Source of the DNA: a virus
Direction: 5' to 3' (one strand)
Length of the DNA: 22,567 bases
IMG/VR virus record: IMGVR_UViG_3300031741_000023
Location: 1-22,567 of that record
The position numbers and the translations under genes were made by a program. Below, in pieces: positions 5,877 through 22,485 of the stretch (positions are counted from its first letter, which is position 1; the number at the start of each line of letters is the position of its first letter). Under the pieces are notes generated by a model that was given only the letters and a program-made list of their open reading frames with translations, made no database searches and was not told where the DNA came from.

Positions 5877-6682
5877 CTAATCACCCCCGAATATTTTGAT
5901 ATTTTGAACAATAACGACGAGCTTTTCTCCTGGCCTCGGATGTCACCTTGATCCTCTTCGGGAGCCGATTGCACCTCCTCTCTGACAGGAAACTGATTTT
6001 TATCGAAGTTTGCGGTTTTGATTTTCGATATTCTTAACTGTTTGAGAGTGACTGAAACATCAGATATTCCGTTCGTGGTTCCATCCTGGGAGAACGATAT
6101 TGCCTGGATTGTCATGTCGTCGTAAAATTCCCACGGAGTCTGGACCGATAAAAGAACCTCATCACCCAGGGCCGCAAGTTGTCGAAATGCTTTTTGTTGG
6201 GCGCTCTCTTCTGGGCCTTCACCATCGAAAAAACCGATTATGTTTTGAGCCTTGTCCAGTGTCTGGTTAATAGCTGATACAGCCGATTGAGCCTGTTGTA
6301 CGACTCTCTGTATCTCCTGGACTGCTCCCGGTGTTGCATCACCGAGATAGGCTTCAACCGTTTCTAATCGGTTTGATATTTCCTGAACTGCGCCTTCGAC
6401 TCCCTGCTTTCCAACATAAACGAGCTCTCCAATGAATCCGGAAAGTGTTATGATTATCGGTTTTTTGACTTTGTGATCGTTCAAGAAAGAATTGCTTTCG
6501 GTATAGTGGTCCGTTATATCCCAATCCAATCTGATCGAATCACTGTCCTCGATGTCGAAAAGAAAACCTGTGATACCCTTGACAGACTTAGGGCTCAGAA
6601 GTGTGTTCGCCTTGTTATCCAAATAGGACCTGGCATCACTGATCCCTGAATTTGCGCTTTGTGCTATTGATCCGAAACTCAT
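5873..6682 (-). CDS. Dit-like distal tail/baseplate protein
   Basis: A 269-residue protein with a Dit-like N-terminal beta domain: GFLFDIEDSDSIRLDWDITD and a PIIITLSGFIGELVY block at about residues 38-88. The middle (about 95-155) is helical, with coiled-coil-like heptads (VEGAVQEISNRLETVEAYL, VQEIQRVVQQAQSAVSAINQ). The second beta part holds TPWEFYDDMTIQAISFSQDG and SDVSVTLKQLRISKI, typical of the Dit-like family that links the last tube ring to the hub. A hydrophilic, acidic and Ser-rich tail ends the protein. Start chosen because GAGGA lies 7 nt upstream and the ATG forms a TAATG overlap with the tape-measure stop. Confidence 0.72.
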   Translation of the reverse strand: MSFGSIAQSANSGISDARSYLDNKANTLLSPKSVKGITGFLFDIEDSDSIRLDWDITDHYTESNSFLNDHKVKKPIIITLSGFIGELVYVGKQGVEGAVQEISNRLETVEAYLGDATPGAVQEIQRVVQQAQSAVSAINQTLDKAQNIIGFFDGEGPEESAQQKAFRQLAALGDEVLLSVQTPWEFYDDMTIQAISFSQDGTTNGISDVSVTLKQLRISKIKTANFDKNQFPVREEVQSAPEEDQGDIRGQEKSSSLLFKISKYSGVIR

Positions 6683-8547
6683 TATTCGTTCCTCGGTAGT
6701 TGTGCAGATGCTCCGTTAATTGTTCTCTGAAGTGCGTTCGCTACTGCGTCACCTGTTGCCGTTGGGTCACCTGATCCATTTACTTCAATTTTGATGTAGT
6801 TTGTCTGGGTTGTGGATGATCCACCTACATTATTTGTTTTTGGTTGCGATAGGTTTTTATCATCTGAGAATAGCCCGAAAAGGTCGAACCCTCCCAACTT
6901 TTCTTTTATCATCCCCTTGATATCCAGATCGCCCAATTTTTCATTGATGAGATCCCCTATCGAAATATCACCGCTTAATATTTCTAACATCCCATTCCAC
7001 ATCTTAATGACTGAATCTATATATCCGCTAATATCTGATATCACCTTTCCGAATGTTCCGAACTCCTCCACCAACTTATCTAGTGTGATCTCTCCACTAA
7101 ATATTTCTATCATCTTTTTCCAGAACTTTATTACGCCCTCGATATATCCAGCTATATCAGCGATCAACTGTCCAAATGCTCCGAACTCCTCCACCAACTT
7201 ATCTAGTGTGATCTCTCCACTAAATATTTCTATCATCTTTTTCCAGAACTTTATTACGCCCTCGATATATCCAGCTATATCAGCGATCAACTGCCCAAAT
7301 GCTCCCCAATCCTCTGTGAGTTTATCGAAAGACATCTCCCCGTTAAAGATGTCTAACATCGCACTCCAGAACTTTGATACGGCCTCGATGTAGGTCCCGA
7401 CTCCTGCGATTGCTACCCCAAACAATCCCCAATCATCGATGAGTTTATCGAGCGATATCCCTCCGGACATAAATCCACTTATTGCTGCGAACACCTCTTT
7501 GATGGCTCCGAATACATCTTTAATAATTCCGAAGATATTGTCTAAAAGTTTCTTGAACCTGGGGAACTCTGCCATCATGCTTCCGAAAAGGGATTCATTC
7601 CCCTGGGAGTATGAGTAAAGATCATCCAGGACTGCCACCAAAATAATGATTCCAGCGATTATTAGTCCAATTGGAGAAGCCGAAAAGGCTGCGTTCATGG
7701 CTAGTATAGCACCAACCAGTCCGTACATAGCGTATTCCCAACCGATTGTTCCTGATACAATATGATTAATTGCCGCCCCTGCGTTATAGACGGCTTTTAT
7801 AAACATGGTCAAATACTTGAATCCCTTTTTGAATCCTTCGACTATTCCCTTTTCATTGACCTTCATCCACTCTTGGAACTGCTTCGTTATTTTTTTGATT
7901 TGAGGGGAGAGGCCAACTGCGATCTGGGCTTTCATATAGCTGATTGCCTTTCCAGCCATATCCATTGCCGACTTGGTTTCTGTCAGTGTCTTGACTGCCT
8001 TCGGGGAGATGATCCAGGCTCGACCTGCCATTTCATCGAACTCTTTATTGGATAGGTTAAGGGTTTGAAGCATCCCGGCACCTACACCGATCTGTGAAAG
8101 GATATTCTTTTTCATTCCCTCTGAGAGCCCTTTCGTTTTTGTTCTGAGATCCTCCAGTATTTTAAAGGGGTCCTGTCTGGGATCTATTCCAAGAATCTGG
8201 TAACCGGATATATCACCCTGGCCAAGTTTGATTTTCTCTTGATTGGATGTTATCGCCTTGATCGCTGACGAAACCGACTCTGCACTCTGGTTTGTCTGCA
8301 ATGCGACTGCTTGCCATTTCTGGAGTTCCTGGGCGCTGGCTCCGGTTTCTGTCTCGAATTGCTTAAACGCTACCGCTGCGTCCATAGCTTCACCCGTTAT
8401 CTTCCTTATTGCGAGAGCTGTTCCAGCGGCTACAGCGGTTGTTGCGATTAGACCAACCTTCACAGTGGTCATGGCTCTGGAGAAACTCTTCGCCTTATCC
8501 TCGTCTGTTTTTAGTCCAATCCTGGCAAACAACTCAGCTATATTCAT
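6682..8547 (-). CDS. Tail tape measure protein with internal 41-residue repeats
   Basis: A 621-residue tape measure, short for the family, which sets tail length and is packed inside the tube before ejection. The N-terminus shows the usual MNIAELFARIGLKTDEDKAK opening and an Ala/Gly-rich hydrophobic helix (about 31-48). A long helical body follows, with a strongly hydrophobic segment at 274-308 (GLVGAILAM, PIGLIIAGIIILVAVL) that may insert in the host membrane at ejection. Residues 361-524 are four tandem 41-residue repeats with a partial fifth. The C-terminus is polar with a TNYIKIEVNGSGDPTATGDA beta stretch. No lysozyme or peptidase motif was seen. No Shine-Dalgarno precedes the ATG; the upstream sequence is a short A-rich repeat, so translation is likely coupled to the chaperone frames. 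Confidence 0.85.
   Translation of the reverse strand: MNIAELFARIGLKTDEDKAKSFSRAMTTVKVGLIATTAVAAGTALAIRKITGEAMDAAVAFKQFETETGASAQELQKWQAVALQTNQSAESVSSAIKAITSNQEKIKLGQGDISGYQILGIDPRQDPFKILEDLRTKTKGLSEGMKKNILSQIGVGAGMLQTLNLSNKEFDEMAGRAWIISPKAVKTLTETKSAMDMAGKAISYMKAQIAVGLSPQIKKITKQFQEWMKVNEKGIVEGFKKGFKYLTMFIKAVYNAGAAINHIVSGTIGWEYAMYGLVGAILAMNAAFSASPIGLIIAGIIILVAVLDDLYSYSQGNESLFGSMMAEFPRFKKLLDNIFGIIKDVFGAIKEVFAAISGFMSGGISLDKLIDDWGLFGVAIAGVGTYIEAVSKFWSAMLDIFNGEMSFDKLTEDWGAFGQLIADIAGYIEGVIKFWKKMIEIFSGEITLDKLVEEFGAFGQLIADIAGYIEGVIKFWKKMIEIFSGEITLDKLVEEFGTFGKVISDISGYIDSVIKMWNGMLEILSGDISIGDLINEKLGDLDIKGMIKEKLGGFDLFGLFSDDKNLSQPKTNNVGGSSTTQTNYIKIEVNGSGDPTATGDAVANALQRTINGASAQLPRNE
6976..7467 (-). repeat. 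Tape-measure tandem repeat array, 123 bp (41 residues) per unit
   Basis: Four full units at residues 361-401, 402-442, 443-483 and 484-524, with a degenerate fifth beginning SGDISIGDL. The consensus begins SGEITLDKLVEEFGAFGQLI and ends VIKFWKKMIEIF. Two stretches are identical over 114 bp in the DNA: 7057-7170 and 7180-7293, offset 123 bp, then one mismatch (7171 T versus 7294 C) and 11 more matching bases. The outer units are diverged. Confidence 0.93.
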
Positions 8548-12461: not shown

Positions 12462-12892
12462 GGCAATGTTGCTCCTCCGACCGCATAAACAGCACCATCG
12501 AGAAAAGGCTTTACGAGAATCAAATACTTTTGCCCGAAATAGGTTGTGGAGTAAAAAGCAAATTCACCCTCGTTCATCCACTCTGGGATTGAGAGAGATT
12601 CCGAAACCCCATCTGCTGATCTGGATGACTGATTAAACTTGGCTTGTCCTCCTGACACAACCGCATCGAGATCCAATTGGAGAAAGTGCGCCGTTAAATA
12701 CGACAGAGCCTGTTTGCATGTAGCATCATCGGGGAACAAACCAGAATTAAAAACCGCCGAGGCCTCTGCTATTGCAGAATCAATATCTCCGTCTCTAACT
12801 TCTGGATACTCATACGGAACAGTAGACCCGTAGAGAAACTGTCCACGGTCAAAATATGCTTTGAATTCTGTTGCCGTTATTGTGCAAGTCAT
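12458..12892 (-). CDS. Head-tail connector (DUF4054 family)
   Basis: A 144-residue adaptor expected to dock under the portal. It begins MTCTITATEFKAYFDRGQF, with the TATEFKAYF pattern and VRDGDIDSAIAEASAVFN helix of DUF4054, then a helical CKQALSYLTAHFLQLDL segment that matches the 'YLtAHlL' region typical of the family. The last third contains FAFYSTTYFGQKYLIL, corresponding to the conserved W/FxxTxYGxxYxxL end. The ATG overlaps the preceding stop as ATGA with GAGG just upstream. Neighbours on both sides are connector or small head proteins. Confidence 0.83.
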   Translation of the reverse strand: MTCTITATEFKAYFDRGQFLYGSTVPYEYPEVRDGDIDSAIAEASAVFNSGLFPDDATCKQALSYLTAHFLQLDLDAVVSGGQAKFNQSSRSADGVSESLSIPEWMNEGEFAFYSTTYFGQKYLILVKPFLDGAVYAVGGATLP

Positions 12893-13113
12893 TTCACCTC
12901 ATCAGATTTCTTTTTATCTGCTTTCTTCTTTTTGGTGATTGCTTTGAAATCCTCTTCGGAACAGGCATCTTCAAATCCTGCGATAACGAGCTTTGCACGA
13001 TCTGGATCGAACGTTAAAAACTTCCCAGGGTGGATAGCATCAACCCCGGTTCTGTCTCTTTTGAATACAACAGGACGTTTTCCCCTGTTAAATACTTTTA
13101 CTGGTTTTGACAT
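12889..13113 (-). CDS. Small basic protein of unknown function, related to the upstream gene
   Basis: A 74-residue protein between capsid and connector genes. The N-terminal part, VKVFNRGKRPVVFKRDRTG, then IHPGKFLTFDPDRAKLVI, resembles the start of the 119-residue protein encoded just upstream: both share a V-x-N-x-G-x-R opening, a PxG(R/K) turn and an Ala-Lys/Arg-Leu helix. The C-terminus is a Lys-rich tail (KKKKADKKK). AAAAGG lies 8 nt before the ATG. Such small proteins after the capsid gene are common in phages and are mostly uncharacterised; a capsid or head-tail accessory role is a guess from context. Confidence 0.65.
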   Translation of the reverse strand: MSKPVKVFNRGKRPVVFKRDRTGVDAIHPGKFLTFDPDRAKLVIAGFEDACSEEDFKAITKKKKADKKKSDEVK

Positions 13114-13166: not shown

Positions 13167-13526
13167 CTACTTCTTTTTTGTGCCGGCTGCTTTCAGTTTT
13201 GTGATCTCTGCCGACAGCTTTTCGTTTTCTACTGCCAGATCCCAGAACGCTTTCTCGCCAGCGGAGATTGAATCATTCAGGGTTTCGTTTTCATCTTCCA
13301 GCTTGGCGTTCTCTTTGTGGAGGTTCTTTTTCGATCCTGTCACAAGGGAATCAAATTCGATAAGGTCCTTTGGATAATCTGCCAAAAGCCTTTTTGCGTA
13401 TGGTTCTTCGATATCGATGGCTCTGCCTGATGGCAACAGCCGATTTTTCTTTTTCCCTGGGGCAGGCTGTAAAGTAAAATCACGGTTCCCGCTGTTGTGT
13501 ACTCTGATTTTTTCTTGAGATGCCAT
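13167..13526 (-). CDS. Small protein with C-terminal coiled coil, unknown function
   Basis: A 119-residue hypothetical protein, the first gene after the capsid terminator. Residues 7-58 (IRVHNSGNRDFTLQPAPGKK onward, with LLPSGRAIDIEEPYAKRLLA) form a compact domain similar to that of the 74-residue neighbour. Residues about 69-113 are a charged, heptad-like helix (HKENAKLEDENETLNDSI, WDLAVENEKLSAEITKLKA) predicted to be a coiled coil, so the protein is probably oligomeric. It ends in a short Lys tail. No Shine-Dalgarno precedes the ATG; the leader is A-rich. Function unknown; it could be a scaffold-like or connector-accessory protein. Confidence 0.65.
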   Translation of the reverse strand: MASQEKIRVHNSGNRDFTLQPAPGKKKNRLLPSGRAIDIEEPYAKRLLADYPKDLIEFDSLVTGSKKNLHKENAKLEDENETLNDSISAGEKAFWDLAVENEKLSAEITKLKAAGTKKK

Positions 13527-13590: not shown

Positions 13591-14628
13591 CTAGTTCGTT
13601 TCGTCGAGGTAAAGAACCTCACGCTTACGATTGATCAGACACCCTGAATACTGACCATGTGCCGGTTGCGTCCAATTGAAATTGTTCGCAGTGCCTGCTT
13701 CCAGCATCGTAAAATCTACTGGAATGGACATTTTCAAAGTTTTGGGATCTCGCTTATAAAGCACATATCGGTTTTTACCGGAGCCACCCAATGCTGAGAT
13801 GTTTCGGTTCGCCTGTGCATAAGCCAAGGGCAAAATCTTGAAATTAGGGTTGTCGGTACCTTTCTGGAAAGCGTTGTTCAGATACTCGATTTTCGAAATG
13901 TTGGGATAAGTACCAGAAACCGGAGCCACCAGGCCAAGATAGTCATTGGCAGGGATAACGAAAGTGTCGGGCTTATCTTCTGTATCGTTCGAGTTCGTGA
14001 AATATGCTCCCAAAATACCTGCTACCAGGGCAGAGAATTGGGTCGAGGTCATGGCTGATATCTCAGTCGTGATCAACGTGGTGTTGATATTAACCGCAGA
14101 ATCGTTCAGCAAGCCTGTTACCAGGGAGTCAGCAGGGTGTCCCAAAAAAGCGACTTCCTGAATTCCCAAATCCCAATTGGTTTTGAGGCTTTCCATCTTC
14201 CCGGCGACGATATCCCAATTGGAAGCGGCTGCGGCTTTCGCAATCTCTGCGATTGTCCATGCTGCCTGCTTTGCCCATGTTTTAACAGGCATCCGAATTG
14301 GCGATAGAGCTGCTCCAACCTGGGCCAATCTTCCAGTGTCTGATTGGGTATCGATGTCACCATCGAAGAAACCACCACCGGTTTGAAAGGTCAGATTCTG
14401 GACGATCTCATCGGACCAGGCTGCTTCACCCACATCGAGTGGCATAAAGTCTGCCGGTGCGATCTTGTAAAACTTCTGTTCAATAACTTCTGCCCTGATG
14501 TAGGAAAGAGTATCGATCAAATACTGATACCCCAATCCAGACGTAACGATGTCACCGTTTGCGTTGGTCAGCATACGGCCCTCAATACTCATATTCGGCT
14601 TCAGGATGCCGTTCGTTCTCATAATCAT
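13591..14628 (-). CDS. Major capsid protein (DUF2184 family)
   Basis: A 345-residue capsid protein of the DUF2184 group, a branch of the HK97 fold. Visible landmarks are the helix GYQYLIDTLSYIRAEVIEQK, the E-loop-like FQTGGGFFDGDIDTQSDTG, the segment MPVKTWAKQAAWTIAEIAKA and the late IEYLNNAFQKGTDNPNFKIL part of the A domain, ending in a FNWTQPAHGQYSG beta stretch. Shine-Dalgarno AGGAG is 8 nt from the ATG. The cement protein gene precedes and a strong terminator follows, the arrangement expected for the most abundant virion protein. No N-terminal delta domain is apparent, which agrees with a separate scaffold encoded within the protease gene. Confidence 0.88.
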   Translation of the reverse strand: MIMRTNGILKPNMSIEGRMLTNANGDIVTSGLGYQYLIDTLSYIRAEVIEQKFYKIAPADFMPLDVGEAAWSDEIVQNLTFQTGGGFFDGDIDTQSDTGRLAQVGAALSPIRMPVKTWAKQAAWTIAEIAKAAAASNWDIVAGKMESLKTNWDLGIQEVAFLGHPADSLVTGLLNDSAVNINTTLITTEISAMTSTQFSALVAGILGAYFTNSNDTEDKPDTFVIPANDYLGLVAPVSGTYPNISKIEYLNNAFQKGTDNPNFKILPLAYAQANRNISALGGSGKNRYVLYKRDPKTLKMSIPVDFTMLEAGTANNFNWTQPAHGQYSGCLINRKREVLYLDETN

Positions 14629-14645: not shown

Positions 14646-15140
14646 TTAGGTGGTATCCACTACCAAAATGGCTAGTGGTCTGACAAGTACACGAACAAGA
14701 ACATCTGCGCCAGATGCCTTGTCGAGCAAAATGCCGAATTGAGGAAGTGTCGATCCGTGTGCCTGAACTACGCCAGGAGCTGAAACATCGAGAGAAACAG
14801 CCACACCTCTGGCTAGAGCTGCTGCGGCTGACATCCACTGTACGTTTCCATCGGAGGAAACCTGTACGATATCGCCTGCCTGCTTTTTGCCTTCTTTGGG
14901 ATCGAAAATAATGGTACCGAACGAAATGGTTGTATCGGCTGCGACTACATCAACCAGTGGTACTCCACCGGGATCATTCGCTCCACCGTCTTTCAGCGCA
15001 ACGGCTGTTCCCGCTACGATATCCTCTGAAGAGGAATCGGGATCGATCCGAAAGGTGAAAGCCGGACCCAAGCCACCTGATTGCAGATCGAGCTGCCCAG
15101 CGACTACGTCCTGGGTAAATTGGTTCATGTTTACGGACAT
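14646..15140 (-). CDS. Capsid decoration / structural cement protein
   Basis: A 164-residue, beta-rich, Val/Ala/Gly-rich protein just before the capsid gene. The pattern FTFRIDPDSSSEDIVAGTAV, then a VQVSSDGNVQWMSAAAALAR stretch and a C-terminal GILLDKASGADVLVRVLVRP strand pair resembles the DUF2190-type structural cement proteins that stabilise the expanded capsid from outside. The Shine-Dalgarno GGGAGG, 6-7 nt from the ATG, is among the best in the window, and the ATG overlaps the protease/scaffold stop as TAATG. High expression together with the capsid gene is therefore likely. Confidence 0.72.
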   Translation of the reverse strand: MSVNMNQFTQDVVAGQLDLQSGGLGPAFTFRIDPDSSSEDIVAGTAVALKDGGANDPGGVPLVDVVAADTTISFGTIIFDPKEGKKQAGDIVQVSSDGNVQWMSAAAALARGVAVSLDVSAPGVVQAHGSTLPQFGILLDKASGADVLVRVLVRPLAILVVDTT

Positions 15141-15667
15141 TAATTACCTCCCTGCACTGCGGCTGGTGTTGACCCGTAGCGGTTTTTGCCTCTGGCGATC
15201 CGGCTTCTCTCGCTGCTGATCTGGATTTTTTCAGGCTCTGCACCTTTCTGAGCGTTTGCCTTGATCTTCAGAAAGCTCTCGTTCTGAGACTTTGAATCGG
15301 CAGAGTTCTTTTTCTGGGTCTCATCGACAGCATCTTCCAATGGCTGATCCGTGGGAGGTTCAGCGTTCTTTTTGGAGTTGAAGTTGTCGTACAGATCCTT
15401 GACAGATACTTCTTTACCGTCGATTTCGACAGTATCTTCCATGTTAATGGTGGGCTTTTCTTCTTCATTTTCCTTGCCCATTGTCGATTTGTAGGTCTCG
15501 ACCAGCTCCGCAAGCGGATACTCGTTGCCCTCTTCATCGACCAGAATGGAATCCATGTTCATTGACATGTCATCTTCATTCTCTTTTGGATCTTCAACGG
15601 GAGGAGGATCGGCCTCGTTTTTCTTCTGGCTTTTCCCCTTTCCAGTGATGAGCTTAAATAGACTCAT
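15140..15667 (-). CDS. Nested scaffold protein (internal in-frame start), 175 residues
   Basis: The same frame as the protease, read from Met162 of the long form. It begins MSLFKLITGKGKSQKKNEAD and is rich in Asp, Glu, Lys, Asn and Ser, with Met-Asp-acidic repeats (DDMSMNMDSILVDEEGNEYP; INMEDTVEIDGKEVSVKDL) and a basic C-terminus. AAAGGAG is 8 nt upstream. This is the arrangement of lambda C/Nu3, where the scaffold is made from an internal start within the protease gene. The start is inferred from the ribosome binding site and the sharp change in composition; its use is not proved. Confidence 0.62.
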   Translation of the reverse strand: MSLFKLITGKGKSQKKNEADPPPVEDPKENEDDMSMNMDSILVDEEGNEYPLAELVETYKSTMGKENEEEKPTINMEDTVEIDGKEVSVKDLYDNFNSKKNAEPPTDQPLEDAVDETQKKNSADSKSQNESFLKIKANAQKGAEPEKIQISSERSRIARGKNRYGSTPAAVQGGN

Positions 15668-16150
15668 TTTATTTTCTCCTTTGGCGTTTTCAAAAATTTT
15701 GACATCACCATACCTCGGATCTTCGACAATTGCCATGTGGTCGTACTCTCCTCCCACAACCTCTTCATCATACGGAACATTGTTATATACCCCACCATCG
15801 GATATGTCTGGGATATAGGCGTTCGACACCTTGTATCCGCTGGCAATGTTGTCTTGGGTGGCTTCGTCCCAGATCATCATGTCGGCAAAATAATAACCGG
15901 TATCCACATCATATCCAACATCTGAAATTACTCCGACTGCGTGTTCTTCTGTTTCTTCACTGGTAAAGTCGAACGCATCCTTTATAGACACGGCTTTATG
16001 AGTGAAGTTAAAAACAGGCTTACCAAGAAAAGAGCGATTCATATTGTCCAGTGCTGGCTTCTTAATGAGTACGGTCTCTCGTTGGTCTCCATCGGTGTAG
16101 TCAACAACGCCGGGTGTGATGTGCAAAGCTCGATATCTTTTTGGCTTCAT
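15140..16150 (-). CDS. Prohead maturation protease fused to scaffold (DUF2213 family)
   Basis: A 336-residue protein with two parts. Residues 1-155 are the DUF2213 serine protease: VFNFTHKAV (His51), then GYKVSNAYIPD (Ser109) and DHMAIVEDPRYGDV (His138), in the order expected of prohead proteases; His51 and Ser109 are the probable catalytic pair. Residues about 160-336 are hydrophilic, highly charged and low in hydrophobics, ending in a Lys/Arg/Ser-rich tail, as in scaffold proteins. A strong internal ribosome binding site lies before Met162, so the scaffold part is probably also made alone. The full-length start has no good Shine-Dalgarno, so the full-length protease may be made at low level. 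A candidate promoter lies 43-70 nt before the ATG. Confidence 0.83.
   Translation of the reverse strand: MKPKRYRALHITPGVVDYTDGDQRETVLIKKPALDNMNRSFLGKPVFNFTHKAVSIKDAFDFTSEETEEHAVGVISDVGYDVDTGYYFADMMIWDEATQDNIASGYKVSNAYIPDISDGGVYNNVPYDEEVVGGEYDHMAIVEDPRYGDVKIFENAKGENKMSLFKLITGKGKSQKKNEADPPPVEDPKENEDDMSMNMDSILVDEEGNEYPLAELVETYKSTMGKENEEEKPTINMEDTVEIDGKEVSVKDLYDNFNSKKNAEPPTDQPLEDAVDETQKKNSADSKSQNESFLKIKANAQKGAEPEKIQISSERSRIARGKNRYGSTPAAVQGGN
15676..15682 (-). promoter_or_regulatory. Internal ribosome binding site for the nested scaffold
   Basis: AAAGGAG on the minus strand with 8 nt to ATG 15667, stronger than anything in front of the full-length protease start. It lies at the junction between the protease domain and the charged scaffold part. 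Confidence 0.6.
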
Positions 16151-16223: not shown

Positions 16224-17147
16224 TTATAATAATGGGATTGCCGCACACCGACACCCGAAGGCTTTGCCCGGATTGCCTCTCTCGCCTGACCTTTCATCGA
16301 TGATTGGTGGGGAAGTGTACGAAAACTCGTTTCCATGTAGTTTCCGGTGCAATGGCCTGGTTCGTCCATCTCCCGCTTTCCCTCCTGAAGCCGACCACCG
16401 ATATCGACGAATTCCGGCTCCCTGGTAACGTTCATCTCGGACTGTGGATGTCAGCAGGGTTGTCTCTTGCCTTGCTAAAAACTTCGCTTTTGCCATCGTT
16501 GTTCCGTACTCCGCCGATATCTGGTCTATCAGTTCCAACCGATTATAACCGGAGAGGATGTTTTTCTCGACCAGGTTCCGGAGTCTCTCGGTCTGGTTTG
16601 GTTCCCAATTCTTTATCGAAATATTAAGATTATTGGTGTAATTTTCCGATATTGTCTGGGAGAGTTCCGGAGTTACATCGATCACAATGCCTGTCGCTTT
16701 CAAATCCTTCGTGGCCTGGGCGTTCATATCTTCCAGTGGTTCCCCTATTGAATACTTCAGGGAATCTACTGCGGCGGTAACACGGTCAGGAATGTCATCG
16801 ATCAGGCTGGATATCTTATCGTTAAGGGCTTTCGCTTTATTGTTTGCGATTGCTGCTGTTGCTGATATTGATGCGGGTGGAATCCCTTTCCAGGTTTTTG
16901 ACCTGGCATCGAACTTCGCAAACTTGTCCAGCTCTGTGGATACCTTCATCGAAAAATCCCCTACGAACTTTCCATCTGTATATCTGATGATTCCCTTTCG
17001 GATAGCCGATATCAGTGCATTGTTCGCATTTAGTAGAAAATAAGGATCTTTCACAGCTGCTATAATTTCAGCCCAAAAAAACTGGTGAAAATAATACTCC
17101 AGCTCTTTCGTTGTGGGCTCCGAATATTGTTCTTTCCATTTCAGCAT
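16224..17147 (-). CDS. Minor head protein (Mu gpF / SPP1 gp7-like)
   Basis: A 307-residue protein that in related phages binds the portal and enters the prohead at low copy. The N-terminal two thirds are helical. The C-terminal third carries the family core: MAKAKFLARQETTLLTSTVR, GIRRYRWSAS, then R-x-LHRKLHG and a final GNPGKAFGCRCAAIP with the conserved C-R-C. The start at 17147 is chosen over a TTG at 17186 because AGGA is 7 nt upstream of this ATG and it lies 4 nt after the portal stop; the longer form would overlap the portal gene. No extra toxin or ADP-ribosyltransferase domain is attached, unlike some family members. Confidence 0.85.
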   Translation of the reverse strand: MLKWKEQYSEPTTKELEYYFHQFFWAEIIAAVKDPYFLLNANNALISAIRKGIIRYTDGKFVGDFSMKVSTELDKFAKFDARSKTWKGIPPASISATAAIANNKAKALNDKISSLIDDIPDRVTAAVDSLKYSIGEPLEDMNAQATKDLKATGIVIDVTPELSQTISENYTNNLNISIKNWEPNQTERLRNLVEKNILSGYNRLELIDQISAEYGTTMAKAKFLARQETTLLTSTVRDERYQGAGIRRYRWSASGGKAGDGRTRPLHRKLHGNEFSYTSPPIIDERSGERGNPGKAFGCRCAAIPLL

Positions 17148-17151
17148 TTTT

Positions 17152-18507
17152 CTATCCTGGATCGATGTCAGGAGTGATATCTCCAACGGCTCCAGGAGGT
17201 GGGTCAGGTTGATCTGGCAGGAGTCCTTTCGCCATATTGGTTTCGATGGTAATTACTCCATGCGTCTGGAGAGCTTTTCCGACTTCCTGGGAATTGAGCA
17301 GGCCCCGGTCATACAAGGCAAGGGCACGATTCTGTTCCGATGTCTTTTTCGTTTCTTCCTGCTCTGCTGTTAGGACCCGAAGAGGTGGAAACTTGAAACG
17401 AAAAGGGGCTTCCCTCCCCCAGAGATGATACATATTCAGCGTAACCATCTCCCTGATAACCTGGCGCATCGGGGCTCTGGTTTCTGACTCGACCATCATG
17501 TTGTAATTCTCCAGGTCACTCTCCCCTGTATTGAATCCGGAAGCGGAAAGACCAAACAGTTTTGTCTGGGGCATCCTGAGTGCTGAACAAATACCGATCC
17601 GGTTTTCCCTTCCGACATCAGCGAGGCCTGTGAAGGTCATAGACTTCTGTTCAAATTCGTCCTGGGAATCCATGACAAGAGCGTTGACGTAGTTCTTTAA
17701 TTCATTGGCAAGCTGCACTCTCCTGGTGATTGCTGCCGTACCTGATTCGTTAATCAACTTTTGTGCCAGGCCCTTGATCCGGTACACATCTATTTTCGAT
17801 TCATCGAGGATCTCATAAAGGACATTCTGCGTTTTGAGGTACAGATTCAGATCCTTGATCATCCTCTCGCCCTCTGACATCCCCCAACCTCTGAGCTGTC
17901 TCCGGACATAATAAGGGGCTCGTTTGCCTCTGATCTTGATAACCCTTGATTCGTGGAACTTTTGACCGTACAGATACAAAAAGTCTGGAGCTGGTCCGAA
18001 CATCATATCGCCCATATCTCCAGCGTATGGGTGGGCATTGTCAAACTGCCATCTATCCGCATCGTAAAGCTCAAGAGGGCCTTTGTTCAGCGTCTGATAA
18101 TTAAGAGGCTCCTCCGGATCCTGGTTCGTATTGATAATGAGCCCGGCGCCTCCGTAAAGTCTTGCCCATTTCCAAGCATCGAGTAGTGCTGTCCATTGTC
18201 CGGACTCCTCCATGAAATCCAAGAGCTCGTCGATATCAGATGGGGACATTTGATCCGATTCGATTTCTATTCCCCTGGACAGTGCATCCTGAGTTGGGAG
18301 ATCGATTGCGGTTTGGAATATTCCGGAGGAGGTGTACAGGTAGGTCAAAACAATCCGATTGAGCGTGATCAGCGAATAGTTGTTGTTATATGCGACCGAT
18401 CCGTAACTTGCCAGGTCTGATCCACCGGTCAGCATCGTTGATACTCTCACCCCTGCCACCAGATCGGTAAGTGAATTGTTTACGATCTGTTCTGTTTTAT
18501 CTTTCAT
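17152..18507 (-). CDS. Portal protein (DUF1073 family)
   Basis: A 451-residue portal, the dodecameric ring through which DNA is packaged. It shows the DUF1073-type start TSSGIFQTAIDLPTQDALSR (residues 59-78), with WKWARLYGGAGLIINTNQD (112-130) and a later LFGLSASGFNTGESDLENYN segment that is the most recognisable motif of this family. The C-terminus is Pro/Asp/Gly-rich (PDQPDPPPGAVGDITPDIDP). The ATG forms a 4-nt ATGA overlap with the large terminase stop, so portal and terminase are translationally coupled. The length is that of a plain portal without an added domain. Confidence 0.88.
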   Translation of the reverse strand: MKDKTEQIVNNSLTDLVAGVRVSTMLTGGSDLASYGSVAYNNNYSLITLNRIVLTYLYTSSGIFQTAIDLPTQDALSRGIEIESDQMSPSDIDELLDFMEESGQWTALLDAWKWARLYGGAGLIINTNQDPEEPLNYQTLNKGPLELYDADRWQFDNAHPYAGDMGDMMFGPAPDFLYLYGQKFHESRVIKIRGKRAPYYVRRQLRGWGMSEGERMIKDLNLYLKTQNVLYEILDESKIDVYRIKGLAQKLINESGTAAITRRVQLANELKNYVNALVMDSQDEFEQKSMTFTGLADVGRENRIGICSALRMPQTKLFGLSASGFNTGESDLENYNMMVESETRAPMRQVIREMVTLNMYHLWGREAPFRFKFPPLRVLTAEQEETKKTSEQNRALALYDRGLLNSQEVGKALQTHGVITIETNMAKGLLPDQPDPPPGAVGDITPDIDPG

Positions 18508-22080: not shown

Positions 22081-22485
22081 TTATCTGGCCTTGTCAATGT
22101 TGAGTATTCCGTCCATGTGGTCGACTTCGTGCTGGATAATGTGCGCCTTCATTCCTCTGGCAGTTTCCAGTACCCCGTTGTTCATAAATTTGATCTTGTA
22201 AAACCTAGGAACTCTGGACCATCTTCCGGGTACCGACAAACAGTCCTCCTCTTTTAGCTTTTCCTTTCCCTTGAATTCCAATATTTTTGGATTCAGCAAG
22301 GTGTACTCTGTCTCACCCATTTTGAACCATGCGAACCTGACCGGAACACCGATCTGAATTGCCGAGGCTCCCATATTTCCTTTGGAGGCTATCTTCAATT
22401 TTTCCACCAGGTTCAGTTCCTGGACCTCTTCCAATGTTGTCTCTCTCGATTTCATGCGAAGTATCCTCTGATCAGTAGTCAGCAT
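22081..22485 (-). CDS. def: Peptide deformylase, phage-encoded
   Basis: A 134-residue deformylase, which removes the formyl group from nascent N-termini. All three family motifs are present in order: motif I NMGASAIQIG (Gln43), motif II EDCLS with metal ligand Cys82, motif III HEVDH with ligands His119 and His123 and catalytic Glu120. Motif II reads EDCLS where most cellular enzymes have EGCLS, and motif I reads GASAIQ where GLAAPQ is common. The protein is shorter than bacterial enzymes, which usually run to about 160-190 residues, and it ends soon after motif III without the C-terminal helix, as in phage versions. GGAG is 8 nt upstream. It may act on ribosome-bound peptides to raise host or phage translation capacity late in infection. 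Confidence 0.9.
   Translation of the reverse strand: MLTTDQRILRMKSRETTLEEVQELNLVEKLKIASKGNMGASAIQIGVPVRFAWFKMGETEYTLLNPKILEFKGKEKLKEEDCLSVPGRWSRVPRFYKIKFMNNGVLETARGMKAHIIQHEVDHMDGILNIDKAR

Follow-up and report, generated by a model that had tools for sequence, protein, structure and literature searches.

The head genes of this phage raise the question of where its scaffold protein is encoded. The window, that is, the whole stretch of 22,567 nt analysed here, is a 22.6-kb IMG/VR fragment, and all statements on gene content refer to these 22.6 kb. Its minus-strand genes run in the order terminase, portal (PF06381), MuF-like, DUF2213, decoration-type and major capsid protein, followed by neck and tail genes, and within the record no second scaffold gene is present between the portal/MuF and the decoration/major capsid genes. 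The original prediction, made from the letters alone, had held that a separate scaffold gene is missing and that the scaffold is instead nested in the protease gene, with its own ribosome binding site, as in phage lambda. The first part of this stands for the interval between the portal and major capsid genes of what is a 22.6-kb fragment; the second part is addressed below. The genes concerned are:

16224..17186, minus strand: MuF-like head morphogenesis gene, upstream of the protease (PF04233, E 1.1e-13)
15140..16150, minus strand: full-length DUF2213 protease-scaffold ORF, 336 aa (from the ORF list; Pfam PF09979, E 3.3e-7; PHROG 2229 'head maturation protease', E 3.4e-9)
14646..15140, minus strand: decoration-type protein gene, its start overlapping the protease stop (similar to phi1422 gp49, E 1.4e-18; role assigned from position)
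13591..14628, minus strand: major capsid protein gene (PF09950, E 1.4e-28)

The protease-scaffold protein belongs to the DUF2213 family, its PF09979 score of 30.9 bits exceeding the curated Pfam cut-off of 22, and a Pfam scan at E values up to 0.01 returned DUF2213 only, with no S49/ClpP-type match. Elsewhere in the window, two adjacent small genes that come next after the capsid gene on the minus strand (13167-13526 and 12889-13113) resemble each other in their N-terminal parts; the former ends in a coiled coil, and two related loci (L081 and L095) have a similar small gene behind the capsid gene. A tape-measure-like protein (6682-8547, minus strand) contains near-identical repeats of about 40 residues (FGAFGQLIADIAGYIEGVIKFWKKMIEIFSGEITLDKLVEE), and a small ORF at 22081-22485 (minus strand) carries the peptide-deformylase-like motifs GASAIQIG, EDCLSVPG and QHEVDHMDG.

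The candidate internal start is defined by the following features:

16148..16150, minus strand: full-length start codon, with a leader lacking a recognisable Shine-Dalgarno (SD) sequence (dG -2.2 kcal/mol; also weak in L002, L005 and L006)
15676..15682, minus strand: internal SD sequence AAAGGAG (anti-SD pairing -8.7 kcal/mol)
15665..15667, minus strand: internal start ATG, Met162, codon 162 of 336
15140..15667, minus strand: putative nested scaffold ORF from Met162 to the stop, 175 aa, 19.4 kDa (in-frame ATG and SD kept family-wide)

As stated in the original prediction, AAAGGAG lies 8 nt before the in-frame ATG at 15667, the spacer reading AAAATAAA on the minus strand, and the full-length start has a much weaker leader (-2.2 versus -8.7 kcal/mol). 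In one sequence, such a site is unremarkable: 28% of the synonymous recodings of the window yield an SD at least as strong at Met162, so the evidence on which the prediction was built is not decisive by itself. The SD-like sequence might thus be a chance occurrence, or the working internal start might be Met139, which is preceded by GGAGGAG with a pairing energy of -10.2 kcal/mol, stronger than that of the Met162 site. Against Met139, its spacer is longer, it falls within the final stretch of the protease domain, and its position is not conserved: of the 36 homologues that could be classified there, 30 have Leu, 5 Met and 1 Val; we rejected it as a working start on these grounds. The chance reading of Met162 was evaluated on the family as a whole.

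Searches recovered three close relatives, with best-segment identities of 66-68%, as well as Bdellovibrio phage phi1422 (28%), and a profile scan extended these to 66 loci, or 58 distinct proteins after the removal of duplicates and truncated copies; SD statistics were calculated on 51 representatives sharing less than 70% identity with one another. The comparison of Met162 and its SD across homologues, proposed along with the original prediction, comes out clearly in its favour. A start codon occupies the junction in 58 of the 58 distinct homologues (56 ATG; GTG in L018 and L052), and the segment that follows it usually resembles a protein N-terminus (MKxxFFKRxKVEN). A strong SD (<= -6 kcal/mol) precedes it in 47 of the 51 representatives, compared with 27.6% in the synonymous null, although these representatives share ancestry and the counts therefore do not amount to 51 independent trials. 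The mean internal SD energy of -7.95 was reached by none of 300 simulated synonymous sets, and only 5.4% of the other in-frame ATGs (n = 484) bear an SD at or below -6 kcal/mol. Weaker internal SDs, from -3.9 to -5.3, are found in L005, L006 and the phage represented by L008 and L067.

The placement of the motif relative to the reading frame is more telling. GGAG is present in 40 representatives, in codon phase 0 in 21 of them, in phase 2 in 18 and in phase 1 in one, and the residue pairs encoded beneath it vary accordingly (GE, KE, GA, QE, LE and others). Since the nucleotides are kept while the codon phase and the encoded residues change, selection appears to act on the RNA rather than on the protein, and we consider these phase changes, together with the exchanges between ATG and GTG, a stronger argument than the raw counts. 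The family statistics are far beyond chance and point to a selected site at Met162; a fortuitous SD there, or a working start at Met139, is thus extremely improbable. The internal SD is, moreover, stronger than the best candidate for the full-length start in 46 of the 51 representatives and weaker in 1, and the internal start is the less structured of the two (mRNA unpaired fraction 0.60 versus 0.43). One locus recovered in the scan (L097, contig JAEMQG010000022.1) is binned as the archaeon Nitrosopumilus, and its protease-scaffold protein is identical in kind to that of phage locus L030; the locus is probably a phage contig in the wrong bin.

The position of Met162 within the protein was examined with an AlphaFold2 model built with 54 relatives, from which the following parts were delimited:

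15689..16150, minus strand: protease domain, residues 1-154 (AlphaFold2 pLDDT mostly >90)
15560..15679, minus strand: disordered linker, residues 158-197, which holds Met162 (pLDDT <50 over most of it)
15365..15559, minus strand: two repeated strand-strand-helix scaffold modules, at about residues 198-226 and 236-262 (AlphaFold2; mutual sequence similarity)
15176..15280, minus strand: scaffold C-terminal helices, residues 291-325, including the conserved RGKxRYGS end (AlphaFold2; alignments)

The Pfam DUF2213 match ends at residue 149 and the confidently modelled domain at about residue 154, so that Met162 lies just past the end of the protease domain; the predicted coincidence of the ATG with the transition from DUF2213 to a charged region is thereby borne out, the region beyond the domain being partly disordered. 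Ser109 (15824-15826) and His138 (15737-15739) form invariant columns in 54 sequences and are candidate catalytic residues, as would befit a serine-type protease. In Foldseek searches the model matched predicted DUF2213 and HK97-type prohead proteases; since much of the scaffold half is disordered, TM-scores over the full query are low for the viral models, and only the N-terminal agreement was read. The family profile gave no match to solved structures. Foldseek against the PDB returned only MCE-type beta barrels, as weak matches whose TM-scores were very low, and these were set aside.

A second set of loci, from a scan of bacterial genomes, reveals that the two halves of the protein are separable. 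In Gastranaerophilales-type prophages a foreign segment, in some cases with PBECR3 and ART-PolyVal domains, is found between the protease and the scaffold. Despite the insertion, AATAAGGAGCAGGA(T/C)-ATG or a close variant stands directly before the scaffold (L081, L083, L088, L096, L100 and L106). The protease ORFs of L094 and L095 stop short of the scaffold, which has a gene of its own there, 48% and 61% identical, respectively, to fused scaffolds; that of L095 directly precedes the decoration and capsid genes. In L082 the scaffold resides in a separate ORF behind another segment, and the internal start is again present. From the free-standing genes of L094 and L095 and the separate ORF of L082, it follows that the C-terminal part can work as a polypeptide of its own. 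The effector-like polyvalent-protein domains comprise PBECR2/3, ART-PolyVal, LPD3 and a possible metallopeptidase. In L081, L083, L088, L094, L100 and L106 they are either placed between protease and scaffold or carried by the scaffold ORF, and in L082 and L102 they are on separate ORFs; this placement suggests that they are cargo carried into the capsid by the scaffold.

The existence of separate scaffold genes in relatives would also suit a different account, namely that only the full-length protein is made, that self-cleavage in the linker frees the scaffold, and that the internal SD is a relic of the fusion of two genes. Such cleavage has a plausible substrate. Asn followed by Ala or Ser is enriched in these proteins (130 NA and 113 NS versus 56 and 44 expected), and an xN[AS] motif occurs at the protease N-terminus in 40 of 51 relatives, at the junction, immediately ahead of Met162, in 46 of 51 and close to the C-terminus in 49 of 49. 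In the protein studied here the motif sites are IFENA (residues 152-156), FNSKKNAEP (257-265), KKNSAD (280-285) and IKANAQK (296-302), and N[AS] recurs near capsid N-termini, the major capsid protein of this phage (13591-14628) having MLTNANG. The consensus [LIVM/K]-x-N-[AS], which we liken to the hydrophobic-x-E rule of T4, may mark the sites at which the DUF2213 protease cuts. A relic SD, however, would decay, whereas homologues down to 24% identity retain the SD far more often than synonymous shuffling would predict; its occurrence in different codon phases and the replacement of ATG by GTG argue against a relic as well, and cleavage and an internal start are not mutually exclusive. We regard it as very unlikely that the full-length protein is the sole translation product.

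Even with a genuine internal start, the short product might be something other than a scaffold, e.g. an inhibitor of the protease, a minor component of the capsid or an internal protein that binds DNA. A PHROG search with the scaffold part alone matched no family, which would suit a non-scaffold product, and a structural precedent bears on the question in both directions. The Pa193 protein deposited in PDB 9B40 as 'gp24 Scaffolding protein' matches E217 gp23 (L199:3471-4904) end to end, and the latter is a DUF2213 protein (residues 6-173) with a junction ATG at codon 195 (SD dG -6.1, versus 0.1 for the full-length start). Residues 286-326 of Pa193 gp24, which lie after this junction ATG, were built as a pentameric helix-turn-helix beneath the five-fold vertex, and the protein was found in the virion by mass spectrometry (PMC11042391). 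The C-terminal region of a DUF2213 protein thus does sit inside the capsid. Segments of gp24 are retained in the mature capsid (PMC11042391), as those of a scaffold usually are not, but the helix-turn-helix faces the coat. A non-scaffold role is further opposed by the location of the gene, which in all the genomes examined immediately precedes those for decoration and capsid proteins, by the composition of this part of the protein (charged fraction 0.44, Trp almost absent) and by the lack of any other scaffold candidate among the intervening genes. We accordingly give little credence to a function other than scaffolding.

The explanation we favour is that one gene yields two proteins with a common C-terminus, a full-length protease-scaffold and a nested 175-residue scaffold, in the manner of lambda C/Nu3, and we assign it a probability of roughly 0.87. 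Weak initiation at 16150 would provide little of the full-length protein, a putative serine-type DUF2213 protease on a scaffold tail, and strong initiation at 15667, the internal ATG with its SD, would provide more of the 175-residue scaffold; such an excess of scaffold over protease would fit the stronger internal SD and the more open mRNA described above. The scaffold would direct the assembly of the capsid protein, and the full-length protein would enter the procapsid via the shared scaffold tail. The protease would then remove the scaffold and trim the capsid protein before DNA entry. The relative doses, the proteolytic activity and the order of events are proposed by analogy with lambda- and Mu-type phages. 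The central claim of the original prediction, a separately translated scaffold nested in the protease gene, is strongly supported by the nucleotide-level conservation, the insertions and the free-standing scaffold genes.

At least 1,903 phage records contain DUF2213 relatives, and classical DUF2213 proteins were gathered via the Pfam model and one further scan. Within an interval of 33 codons, set mechanically after the domain, an ATG is found in 48 of 56 representatives, in 32 with a dG of -6 or lower (null 29%). Six of the other 8 representatives do have a junction ATG, which the interval misses; these were kept apart and left out of the 48/56 statistics. The junction reads CAGGAGGCAATAAA-ATG in phiPLPE and AAAGGAGATGAGGAA-ATG in the T1-like pSf-1, and a junction ATG is also present in PEi21, Vibrio K103, Klebsiella RCIP0080, PaV-LD, LZ35 and E217. 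According to the original prediction, close relatives should not lose the internal start unless they have a separate scaffold gene. L082, L094 and L095 agree with this in carrying the scaffold in a separate ORF; the expectation is less well served by two distant exceptions, Erwinia phage Fougasse (L208) and L150, in whose DUF2213 proteins no junction ATG was found. Fougasse has a 109-aa hypothetical gene between its decoration and capsid genes, which might be a separate scaffold. A gene of Aeromonas phage pAh6-C, first taken as DUF2213, proved to be wrongly assigned and was dropped.

A broader generalisation can be put forward only tentatively, and we would sooner doubt than assert it in full: DUF2213 genes may generally encode two products, with the scaffold made from a nested start; the protease may recognise [LIVM/K]-x-N|[AS] sites bracketing the protease, the scaffold and the capsid N-terminus; and some prophages may load effector-type domains (PBECR nuclease, ADP-ribosyltransferase, LPD3) into the capsid between protease and scaffold, the nested start keeping most of the scaffold cargo-free. 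Scaffold proteins diverge fast, which makes them hard to detect by similarity, and in DUF2213 phages they would seem to be absent because the protease gene contains them. An SD-backed ATG just after the protease domain offers a rule for locating the scaffold in a widespread family that includes coliphages and therapy-candidate phages, and how the doses of scaffold and protease are set becomes a testable question. The nested design would also explain why one protein is named scaffold in one paper and protease in other records.

Among characterised systems, our literature search found precedents only in Mu-like phages and lambda, and no statement pairing DUF2213 with a nested scaffold. The nearest named relative, phi1422 gp48 (28.5% identity over 97%), has the same gene order and AAAAAAGGAGAAGAACCA-ATG at codon 179, but is annotated as hypothetical, has a longer linker and a full-length start with a moderate SD (-6.3); the phi1422 genome paper makes no mention of scaffold or protease. 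Pa193 gp24 and E217 gp23, from PB1-like phages, carry DUF2213 at the same gene position but are longer (477-478 aa versus 336 aa), and their C-terminal part has no recognisable sequence similarity to the scaffold described here. The Pa193 paper describes gp24 as a scaffold and notes neither the protease domain, the word protease being absent from its text, nor the internal start (PMC11042391). Our protein shares with lambda C/Nu3 the nested in-frame scaffold start, the protease-first order and the location before the decoration and capsid genes. In lambda, a single reading frame encodes an N-terminal protease and a C-terminal scaffold with an internal start, upstream of the decoration and capsid genes; lambda C is of the S49/ClpP protease type, and Mu I belongs to a separate Pfam family. 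Our protein matches DUF2213, of a different fold family, and not S49, and would therefore represent a lambda-like design in another protease family. Lambda Nu3 is experimentally proven, and an interaction between C and Nu3 has been described (PMC3224144), whereas the short product proposed here is predicted from sequence. A scaffold start inside the protease gene, preceded by an SD, is likewise shared with Mu I/Z and with gene 27 of the Pseudomonas Mu-like phage PaMx73, for which an in-frame start with an SD about 8-9 nt upstream was deduced from the sequence (PMC4378225); the start there is, however, a GTG (Val177), and few genomes were compared. The arrangement itself is thus known from lambda C/Nu3 and Mu I/Z; DUF2213 appears to be a different protease family in which the same arrangement has very probably been kept across a large and widespread group of phages, PB1-like and T1-like ones included.
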